NCBI GenBank assembly: GCA_903829945.1
Contig: CAIKRV010000080.1
Coordinates: 1 to 58,674 of the forward strand
Direction: 5' to 3'
DNA from: an uncultured bacterium
GTDB taxonomy: Bacteria > Bacteroidota > Bacteroidia > CAILMK01
DNA: 58,674 bases
The notes under the pieces are model-generated. The model was not told the origin of the DNA, did not search any database, and saw only the letters and a program-made list of their open reading frames with translations. A program made the translations under genes and the position numbers. Of this stretch, positions 46,921 through 58,674 are shown in pieces; position 1 is the first letter of the stretch; the number at the start of each line of letters is the position of its first letter.

Positions 46921-47493
46921 TTAAAATAAAAAGGAATTTAGGACCATACTTACCATTCGTAAAGTGGAAAGTTTTGGTTTTTTTTCTCCCATCAATTTGA
47001 CTAATTCTTGTCGTGCTCGGCTAATTCTTGATTTTACAGCACTTTCACCGACTTTTTGTACCTCGCAAATTTCTTTTATACTTAAACCTGAAACTTCAAA
47101 TAATAGGAGCGCCATTTTTTGTTCTTCCGGCATTTTGCTAAGCGTATGGTATAGCAGACTTAAATCTGTACTCATTTCTGCATCGCTGTAGCTACCGCTT
47201 ACTTCCTCAGCTTTCTTTTGTTCAAAAACGCCCCACCATTTTTTTTGTCTGTTTTTGTTTTTGAAAATATTAGAGGCGGTTCCAAATAAATAGGAGAGAA
47301 ATGCTTCTTTACTTTTTAACTGATCAAAATGTTCAAAAGCGGTAAGGATGGTGTCACTCATTAAATCGCGGGCATCTTCTCTGTTTTTGGTTAATGCTTC
47401 ACAAAAACGGCTCAAACGTGCATTCAATGGAGTATATAATTCCATGAATTCAGTTTGTTTTTCCAAATCAGTATGAACTGCTTTTAATGCCAT
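46921..47493 (-). CDS. ECF-type RNA polymerase sigma factor
   Basis: A 190-aa sigma-70-family protein of the extracytoplasmic function type. Region 2 includes NREDARDLMSDTILTAFEHF (20) and YLFGTASNIFKNKNRQKK; region 4 contains LSKMPEEQKMALLLFEVSGL (20), then SIKEICEVQKVGESAVKSRI (20) with the helix-turn-helix, and SRARQEL. The stop is 19 nt before the membrane protein at 46901, so they form an operon. A TATATTTG promoter element lies upstream at 47627-47634 with a leader of about 130 nt. Confidence 0.9.
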   Translation of the reverse strand: MALKAVHTDLEKQTEFMELYTPLNARLSRFCEALTKNREDARDLMSDTILTAFEHFDQLKSKEAFLSYLFGTASNIFKNKNRQKKWWGVFEQKKAEEVSGSYSDAEMSTDLSLLYHTLSKMPEEQKMALLLFEVSGLSIKEICEVQKVGESAVKSRISRARQELVKLMGEKKPKLSTLRMVSMVLNSFLF

Positions 47494-56145: not shown

Positions 56146-56664
56146 TTTCAAATACATTTGCTGCAAGGCGCCCCAAAGTTTTTCGCGCAGGGGTTGTGAG
56201 CCTTGAATATCCGAAAGGCGATCGGTTAGGAATAAAAGTTTATCCCCTTGCTGACTGAGCGTGTATAATTGTAAATTAATGGGAAGTAATCCCATCGGAG
56301 AATCAAAAGCAATAATCTTTTTATAAGGTAATAACATGATATCCTGCGGACTGATTCCTTTCTCTGCACCGATATTGATGAGGGCTATTTTTTGCATATC
56401 CAATTTTACCGAACCAAGAATTTTATTTAAGTACTCAATATCAGAGGTAGGAATGGCGGTTCCCGGGGCATAATTCAGTAAGATTAAACTTTCGGAATTG
56501 GGGTTGCCTTGAATCTTTAACGCTTCTTTTACAGGCGTTTTATTAATTATATCCGGTGCTAAGGTTACTCCTTTTTTATCTTCAGCCAATAAATAAAGAC
56601 CTTCCGTATAAAATTCCGCATAAAATGATGCGTTAAATACTTCCTGATTTTCTTGCGTTTCCAT
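56143..56664 (-). CDS. uncharacterised protein, 173 aa
   Basis: I do not recognise this protein. It is soluble, without signal peptide, and has an alternating beta/alpha pattern: ESLILLNYAPGTAIPTSDIE, KIALINIGAEKGISPQDIML and KKIIAFDSPMGLLPINLQLY, each 20 or fewer residues. The core looks like a small Rossmann-type domain. It is convergent with nuoI (12 nt between stops) and divergent from ilvE (43 nt). Confidence 0.6.
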   Translation of the reverse strand: METQENQEVFNASFYAEFYTEGLYLLAEDKKGVTLAPDIINKTPVKEALKIQGNPNSESLILLNYAPGTAIPTSDIEYLNKILGSVKLDMQKIALINIGAEKGISPQDIMLLPYKKIIAFDSPMGLLPINLQLYTLSQQGDKLLFLTDRLSDIQGSQPLREKLWGALQQMYLK

Positions 56665-56679
56665 GTTAAATATTAGTGG

Positions 56680-56687
56680 TAAATTTG
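56680..56687 (+). promoter_or_regulatory. -7 promoter element TAAATTTG of ilvE
   Basis: This matches TAnnTTTG and lies 20 nt before ATG 56708. It overlaps the first upstream bases of the divergent 173-aa gene. Confidence 0.55.
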
Positions 56688-56707
56688 CCTTTGTCGAAAC
56701 AACTCTT

Positions 56708-57766
56708 ATGACTTACGAAATTACGGTTCAGGCCTCAAAAAACTCCAAGATAAATCAAGTAGATTTCCACAATATACCTTTTGGCAAAATATTTACAGAC
56801 CATATGTTGCTTTGTGAATATGCCGACGGAGATTGGAAATCGGCCGAAATACTGCCCTTTCAAAACATTTCCGTAAGTCCGGCGATGTCTGCCTTGCATT
56901 ATGGACAAGAAATATTCGAAGGAATGAAGGCCTATAAAAATCCTGAGGGGAAGGCCGGAATTTTCCGTCCTGAGATGAATCATCGCAGGATGAACCGTTC
57001 TGCCCATAGAATGTGTATGCCGGAAATTCCGGAAGAACTATTTATAAATGGATTAAATGAATTAATCCGCATGGATAGTGCATGGATTCCTACTACGGAA
57101 GGCGCCTCCTTATATATCCGACCATTTATGGTAGCTACGGATGAGTTTGTAGGTATCCGTCCCTCAGAAACCTATAAGTTTATTATTTTTTGCAGTCCGG
57201 TAGGAGCCTATTATACCGAGCCGATAAAAGTAAAAATAGAGGAACATTATACCCGTGCAGCACGCGGAGGCGTTGGCTCAGCAAAGAATGCAGGAAATTA
57301 TGGTGCGTCCTTATATCCAGCTGCCTTGGCCGCCAAAGAAGGATTTAAACAAATATTGTGGACGGATGATGTAGAACACCGATGGATAGAAGAATCCGGC
57401 ACCATGAATGTATTTTTTGTCATCGGCGATAAAATCATTACGCCCTCCTTGGATGGAAATATATTGGACGGCGTCACCCGTGATAGCGTAATCACCTTAT
57501 TTAGTGATAAAGGTGCTACGGTAGAAGAGCGCCCCATTTCCATTGAAGAAGTATTGACAGCCCATCAAAATGGCGAACTGAAAGAAGCCTTTGGCGCAGG
57601 TACCGCAGCGACGATTGCACAAATAACCGATATTGGATATCAAGGAAGCTTATTAAGCTTACATCCAATAGCGGCACGCAAATATTCCACTTGGGTATTG
57701 GAACAATTAGAAGGCATTAAACGCGGCACTCTGGAAGATAAATTTTCCTGGATGCATTGGTTGTAA
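56708..57766 (+). CDS. ilvE: branched-chain amino acid aminotransferase
   Basis: A 352-aa class IV PLP aminotransferase for the last step of valine, leucine and isoleucine synthesis or the first step of their breakdown. ATG 56708 (MTYEITVQAS) follows the promoter; an in-frame ATG at 56663 lies upstream of the promoter and is rejected. Motifs: LHYGQEIFEGMKAYKN near residue 75, SAKNAGNYGASLYPA with the PLP Lys, and EESGTMNVFFV near 240. Family C-terminus intact. Confidence 0.95.
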   Translation: MTYEITVQASKNSKINQVDFHNIPFGKIFTDHMLLCEYADGDWKSAEILPFQNISVSPAMSALHYGQEIFEGMKAYKNPEGKAGIFRPEMNHRRMNRSAHRMCMPEIPEELFINGLNELIRMDSAWIPTTEGASLYIRPFMVATDEFVGIRPSETYKFIIFCSPVGAYYTEPIKVKIEEHYTRAARGGVGSAKNAGNYGASLYPAALAAKEGFKQILWTDDVEHRWIEESGTMNVFFVIGDKIITPSLDGNILDGVTRDSVITLFSDKGATVEERPISIEEVLTAHQNGELKEAFGAGTAATIAQITDIGYQGSLLSLHPIAARKYSTWVLEQLEGIKRGTLEDKFSWMHWL

Positions 57767-57834
57767 AAAGGGAGTGGAATTTGATATTAATGGATAGTAA
57801 TATGATTATTGTCTAACATAAGCTTCCTTAGTAT

Positions 57835-57972
57835 TTAATTCAAAAGCAATATATTTTTTTGTCCGGGCAAGGGTTTTGAATCATCGTTTTCATTTGCACT
57901 AATCTCATCAGAGATTACATCAATAGCAGGACAAGTGCATTGCGCAAAATTTATAGCTTTACAAATAAGCAA
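57835..57972 (-). CDS. possible small Cys-rich protein or remnant
   Basis: A 45-codon frame on the minus strand, from TTG 57972 to TAA at 57835. The product has a Cys pattern CKAINFAQCTC and an acidic middle SDEISANENDD. It has no ATG. A second frame just upstream (MRAFEIQIPVCLFVKL, from ATG at 58000) overlaps it and could join it after a frameshift near 57970, which may mean a broken gene. Composition looks coding but evidence is thin. The remainder of 57767-58100 is AT-rich with nothing else seen. Confidence 0.25.
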   Translation of the reverse strand: MLICKAINFAQCTCPAIDVISDEISANENDDSKPLPGQKNILLLN

Positions 57973-58100
57973 ACAGGAATTTGAATTTCAAAAGCCCTCA
58001 TATAATTCTCTAGAATTTTTTTATAATAATCAATTTGTTTTTGTTCTTATGTTTTACTATTTTTCCTTGTGATTTGGATTTGGGTAGTTAAAAGGGCAAT

Positions 58101-58188
58101 AAAAAAAGTCGGAATAAATCCCGACTTTGGTGGTTCGAAGCATAGCTACTTTCGTAGTTAGCGGCTACAATCCATCGCAAAAATACGA
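58101..58188 (-). ncRNA. candidate small RNA, tandem copy 1
   Basis: On the minus strand a TTTG (58210-58207), 21-nt spacer and TATTTTTG (58185-58178) form a full Bacteroidota promoter. The transcript of about 70 nt contains a CTAC-GAAA-GTAG tetraloop hairpin and ends at an intrinsic terminator, AAAGTCGG paired with CCGACTTT (58105-58128), followed by seven T. No frame of note. A near-identical copy lies 157 bp away at 58259-58345. Confidence 0.65.
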
Positions 58189-58258
58189 ATATTTTTTTAA
58201 TTACAACAAAATTAAATAAAAAATTGCTAGTGATTTATTTTTAATAATTTAAGAGTAT

Positions 58259-58345
58259 AAAAAAGCCGGAATAAATCCCGACTTTGGTGGTTCGAAGCAT
58301 AGCTACTTTCGTAGTTAGCGGCTACAATCCATGGCAAATATACGA
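58259..58345 (-). ncRNA. candidate small RNA, tandem copy 2
   Basis: Copy of 58101-58188 with three differences in about 83 bp. On the minus strand TTTG (58369-58366), a 23-nt spacer and TATATTTG (58342-58335) form the promoter. The terminator stem is 58262-58269 with 58278-58285. The one stem difference makes a G-U pair in the minus-strand RNA but a C-A mismatch in the plus-strand RNA, which supports transcription from the minus strand. Confidence 0.65.
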
Positions 58346-58420
58346 CGATTGCTGCTTAATTATACCAAATTTCACTAAATTTTTTTTGTGGTTTGTGTTT
58401 AATTTATGATTTTAAAAATA

Positions 58421-58440
58421 ATTATATTTGCAAATATAAT
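58421..58440. promoter_or_regulatory. palindromic promoter/operator
   Basis: A perfect 20-bp palindrome built from ATTATATTTG and its complement. Each half carries the -7 element TATATTTG, one per strand. The plus-strand element (58423-58430) is 66 nt before ATG 58497; the minus-strand one faces the sRNA repeats. It could be a divergent promoter or a dimeric repressor site. Confidence 0.5.
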
Positions 58441-58496
58441 TATTCCTTTTCTGGAAGATTATTAAATAATTGATTACCATTAATAAAGATAAAACT

Positions 58497-58674
58497 ATGA
58501 CATTAACATTAGACCTCCTTTGTTCCAGATGTAAGCATTTTTTTCCCGGAGGATGTCATGCCTTTCCGGAAGGGATAGACCCTGCAGTTATATATGAAAT
58601 CTAACATGTTACGCCTTTGTCTCATCAAAAGAATACTATAGTATTTGAGCCCATTGAAGGGATTGATATTAATG
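58497..58674 (+). pseudogene. small Cys-rich CxxCKHF protein, interrupted by in-frame TAA and cut by window end
   Basis: From ATG 58497 the frame reads MTLTLDLLCSRCKHFFPGG, CHAFPEGIDPAVIYEI and then TAA (58602-58604). The same frame continues HVTPLSHQKNTIVFEPIEGI to the window edge without another stop. Small proteins with this CxxCKHF-x-GG-CxAFPEGIP pattern normally continue into H-x-x-P-x-x-x-Q-x-x-x-FEP, so the part after the stop looks like the same gene. Either the TAA makes a pseudogene or it is a sequencing error; read-through is also possible. Role unknown; the Cys pairs suggest metal binding. Confidence 0.6.

Follow-up and report, generated by a model that had tools for sequence, protein, structure and literature searches.

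Two nearly identical units lying in tandem on one contig of an uncultured member of the Bacteroidota are, in our judgement, likely to be sibling small-RNA (sRNA) genes, both read from the minus strand and each with its own promoter and terminator. An earlier note on this DNA had put forward this interpretation (duplicated sRNA genes in tandem, with full sets of Bacteroidota signals), and the anatomy of the units, set out below, makes it the best reading. Tandem sibling sRNAs comprise at least two highly similar genes, each with transcription signals of its own, and both properties are found here. Coordinates refer to the window, that is, the whole stretch of 58,674 nucleotides that was analyzed. 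The features of the two genes are as follows.

58102-58188, minus strand: unit 1, 87 nt
58259-58345, minus strand: unit 2, 87 nt
58178..58210, minus strand: candidate promoter of gene 1 (pattern scan and sequence), TTTG - 21 nt - TATTTTTG, box at 58185-58178
58335..58369, minus strand: candidate promoter of gene 2 (pattern scan and sequence), TTTG - 23 nt - TATATTTG, box at 58342-58335
58102..58173, minus strand: sRNA gene 1, predicted transcript of about 70 nt, start near 58173 and end within the T-tract at 58102-58106
58259..58330, minus strand: sRNA gene 2, predicted transcript of about 70 nt, start near 58330
58105..58128, minus strand: intrinsic terminator of gene 1, AAAGTCGGGA TTTA TTCCGACTTT, then a T-tract
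58262..58285, minus strand: intrinsic terminator of gene 2, AAAGTCGGGA TTTA TTCCGGCTTT, then a T-tract; holds a U-A to U-G change

Extent and age of the duplication

The two units start 157 nt apart, and their 87-nt cores are 97% identical in pairwise comparison; a repeat search of the window reports them as a direct repeat of 92 nt with 95% identity and the same spacing. Three substitutions separate unit 1 from unit 2, and thus the near-identity, the spacing of 157 bp and the three differences described earlier all stand. In both units the near-identity sets in immediately ahead of the -7 box and lasts until the T-tract ends. The downstream flanks resemble each other at the level of shuffled sequences (p 0.24-0.5), and the 60 nt upstream show a weak, gapped similarity above that of mononucleotide shuffles (p 0.0025, a value that may be generous in AT-rich DNA). 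Since near-identity is confined to the stretch from the -7 box to the T-tract and the flanks have drifted, the transcription unit is the conserved part. The residual similarity upstream indicates that the duplication is not brand-new and probably took in the -33 region. The pattern suggests an older duplication, after which only the transcribed unit was constrained, and this part was probably kept nearly constant in both copies by selection or gene conversion.

Promoters, terminators and predicted folding

The Bacteroides promoter has a -7 box, TAnnTTTG, and a TTTG element near -33 (PMC7366714). On the minus strand of each unit the earlier note had placed a TTTG, a spacer of 21 or 23 nt and a -7 box, and both arrangements were recovered by a scan of the two strands with a relaxed -33 element (NTTG) and spacers of 17-23 nt; the box that follows the spacer is TATNTTTG at both units. 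In the entire 58.7-kb window, both strands counted, the scan gave only around 10 such promoter pairs, including the two at the sRNA units. Because Flavobacterium psychrophilum has the TAnnTTTG box at -12 to -5 (PMC9723704), transcription is predicted to start near 58173 and 58330, which gives transcripts of about 70 nt.

Each unit closes with a terminator stem and a run of T, as had been noticed before; minus-strand terminators of 10 bp with a T-tract number two, versus 0.4 expected from shuffles of positions 57700-58674. The sole difference between the terminators, in unit 2, turns a U-A pair into U-G in the minus-strand RNA and into an unpaired A-C on the plus strand, so that the change does keep pairing in the minus-strand RNA only, as claimed, but it is a single event. 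On the plus strand the stem is followed by three T only and would make a poor terminator. The minus-strand folds are more stable than those of dinucleotide shuffles (z -3.9 for unit 1 and -2.6 for unit 2), and the plus-strand folds, against the same kind of shuffles, are comparable (z -4.0 and -1.8). Folding alone therefore leaves the strand unfixed, and it is the promoter and the T-tract that fix it.

The predicted minimum free energy of the gene 1 RNA is -22.9 to -23.1 kcal/mol. The body of each RNA is predicted to form a single long hairpin, in which blocks of 3 bp are split by single mismatches (3 bp, 1x1, 3 bp, 1x1, 3 bp), and the 5' region of the predicted RNAs is mostly paired, with little single-stranded sequence. 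The GAAA-capped hairpin proposed earlier (4 bp), when enforced, gives -22.5 kcal/mol versus -22.9 for the optimal structure with a slipped loop; it is one of a pair of structures of almost the same stability, within 0.4 kcal/mol of each other.

A mostly paired RNA and a plus strand that matches the minus strand in folding would also suit a recent or gene-converted copy of a structured intergenic element, such as a terminator or a protein-binding palindrome, any transcript of which would have no function in trans, and the lack of homologues and of a conserved position (including the same-genus aminotransferase neighborhood without a unit; see below) points in the same direction. Such an element would not, however, explain why each copy has a complete promoter and terminator, oriented alike, nor would it explain limits of conservation that match a transcription unit and not a palindrome, or the poor terminator on the plus strand, and we regard this explanation as unlikely.

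Surroundings of the units

The sRNA units occupy a stretch between protein-coding genes, near the contig end, and the two genes named in the following sections are these.

56663..57766, plus strand: aminotransferase-like gene (ORF of 367 aa), in convergent orientation to the sRNA genes
46921-47493, minus strand: ECF-type sigma factor gene (Pfam family search)

The former, whose product we take to be branched-chain amino-acid aminotransferase-like, is conserved in all 12 of the 12 genomes of the order. Directly downstream of sRNA gene 1, a minus-strand ORF of 45 codons (57835-57972) ending ...ISDEISANENDDSKPLPGQKNILLLN may be the remnant of a small protein gene; it has no credible Pfam or NCBIfam match. 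At 58417-58444 there is a perfect 28-bp palindrome, AATAATTATATTTGCAAATATAATTATT, in which either strand carries a TAnnTTTG box; it lies shortly upstream of a small plus-strand ORF and is possibly an operator or a two-way promoter. This small ORF, at 58498-58674, is rich in Cys (MTLTLDLLCSRCKHFFPGGCHAFPEGIDPAVIYEI) and has an in-frame TAA, beyond which the frame plausibly continues as far as the contig end. The ORF, which has no Pfam or NCBIfam match, is possibly a broken gene or an assembly error.

Copies in the genome and in relatives

The genome contains exactly two copies of the unit, and the small multicopy family envisaged in the earlier note is not borne out beyond this pair, no homologue having been found in relatives. 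The covariance-model search that it had recommended, of the genome and its relatives, found both units and neither further copies nor homologues. Its statement that the unit matches no familiar sRNA class holds: no Rfam 15 family matches the region at the gathering threshold, and relaxed thresholds yielded nothing credible, the best sub-threshold match being MicX (19.8 bits versus 75). No homologue was found in the other genome of the same genus (78% complete), in the family (four genomes, including the source genome), in the order (12 genomes), in 395 genomes of the class with the covariance model, or in 395 genomes of the phylum with BLAST. Plasmids and phages gave no real match to the unit, and scans for exact patterns in GTDB and viral contigs were either empty or returned coding coincidences. 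At the aminotransferase loci of 11 genomes of the order no unit occupies the orthologous position, and the genome of the same genus has the aminotransferase neighborhood without the unit. Because no homologue was found, the structure has no covariation or comparative support, two sequences with one informative pair being available. The RNA is specific to the source species or very near relatives.

Several matches were rejected. Those of the covariance model in 32 other genomes of the class scored 24-33 bits, versus 118-119 for the units themselves, and the best of them, when inspected, were plain terminator hairpins with no similarity to the body. Coding genes account for the BLAST matches in the phylum, for an exact match of 22 nt in Prevotella and for a match to a gapped pattern in Emticicia (by eye, a susD-like gene that holds the Prevotella 22-mer, an alpha-amylase-like gene, an acyl-CoA-ligase-like gene and one other gene), which are therefore coincidences. 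An origin of the units from a tRNA or tmRNA is rejected because ARAGORN reports only three tRNAs, at the other end of the window.

The frame that is open through both units is also the one in which the Prevotella coincidence and two of the BLAST ones are read, and tandem short protein-coding genes of 36 and 30 codons, M[P/R]WIVAANYESSYASNHQSRDLFRLF..., might be supposed. This is extremely improbable: the sole in-frame start (TTG) lies inside the -7 box, upstream of any transcript, the frame crosses the terminator and has a different end in each copy, there is no Pfam match, and near the expected start the sole ATG opens an ORF of five codons, MDCSR. An ORF scan found no convincing ORF in the units. 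We also consider it very unlikely that the units are part of a mobile element, such as the end of a transposon or a small repeat element. A sequence that is repeated and lineage-specific, and that lies at the end of a contig in intergenic DNA of otherwise degenerate appearance, could have such an origin, but the genome holds two copies only, 157 nt apart, phages, plasmids and viral contigs have no matches, and a repeat search found no inverted-repeat pair bounding the units.

Possible mode of action

As sibling sRNA genes, each would be transcribed from its own primary-sigma promoter (TTTG / TAnnTTTG), and both RNAs would be made, the product being an RNA of about 70 nt with one long interrupted hairpin and then the intrinsic terminator. 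The RNAs may act in trans by pairing with mRNAs near start codons; to this base-pairing mechanism we give an even chance. Their partner would probably be an RRM_1 (RbpB-type) protein rather than Hfq. Profile searches of the genome found a sole RRM_1 protein (G000:C86:49911-50120, E 3.5e-23) and no match to Hfq, which agrees with the setting of riboregulation in Bacteroides (PMC7366714, PMC11697453) and is what an RbpB-type partner would lead one to expect. Because the transcribed parts are virtually identical, the two RNAs would be redundant in target choice, and their upstream regions, which have diverged, could let them be expressed differently or could just raise the dose. Known siblings (PMC4211561) make redundant action plausible by analogy.

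No target scored above chance among the 46 window genes: the best net interaction was -11.3 kcal/mol, a value equalled or beaten by 96 of 150 shuffled sRNAs. This outcome and the mostly paired 5' region tell against the sibling-sRNA reading. The strongest duplex in the window, a long one, was with the leader of the ECF sigma-factor mRNA, and this candidate was dropped because of the same 96 shuffles. A quite different reading, that the units represent a new RNA class of one small uncultured Bacteroidota lineage, with the interrupted hairpin as a protein-binding or sequestering module, not an ordinary base-pairing sRNA, and with the copies kept identical by selection or gene conversion, seems to us distinctly improbable.

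Beyond Bacteroides and Flavobacterium few Bacteroidota sRNAs have been described, and those known to be multicopy work with an RRM protein, not Hfq. If the sibling-sRNA reading is true, a clean two-gene pair with all its signals, in a genome that encodes a single RRM_1 protein and in which Hfq was not detected, would offer a simple test case for the RRM arrangement, within the limits that the RNA is an orphan and that the organism is apparently known from draft genomes only.

Comparison with known small RNAs

The kind of gene found here is known (PrrF1/2, OmrA/B and FopS), whereas the RNA sequence itself is new, an orphan. Pseudomonas aeruginosa is an Hfq-using bacterium. Its PrrF1 and PrrF2 are two tandem sRNA genes with about 95% identity (PMC4211561), and the present genes resemble them as a tandem, near-identical pair; PrrF1/PrrF2 are iron/Fur-controlled, belong to another phylum, and differ in sequence and size. 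OmrA and OmrB of Escherichia coli are likewise tandem sRNAs (82-88 nt), but are near-identical at their two ends only (PMC4211561), whereas here the whole transcript is near-identical. GibS of Bacteroides thetaiotaomicron is, like the present RNAs, an intergenic Bacteroidota sRNA with an intrinsic terminator, but it is a single gene with a PM2 promoter and a long single-stranded 5' seed, in contrast to the mostly paired 5' region here (PMC7366714). Strain-specific sRNAs are nothing unusual in the phylum; in B. thetaiotaomicron, 27 of 49 high-confidence intergenic sRNAs are of this sort (PMC7366714).

FopS is a 14-member Bacteroides family of RNAs of about 65-70 nt with a TTTG/TAnnTTTG promoter, present in 12-15 copies per Bacteroidaceae genome and with an R1' seed in the 5' region (PMC11697453). 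The units described here differ in that there are only two copies, in tandem, that their 5' region is largely paired, and that they lack known homologues; since the copy number disagrees and the comparison covered such features rather than the sequence, we do not file them as FopS. They share with FopS of B. thetaiotaomicron a place in the Bacteroidota, paralogous genes, a defined 3' end, a genome with RRM_1 and no detectable Hfq, a length (70 nt predicted here) within 65-70 nt, and the canonical sigma-ABfr promoter.
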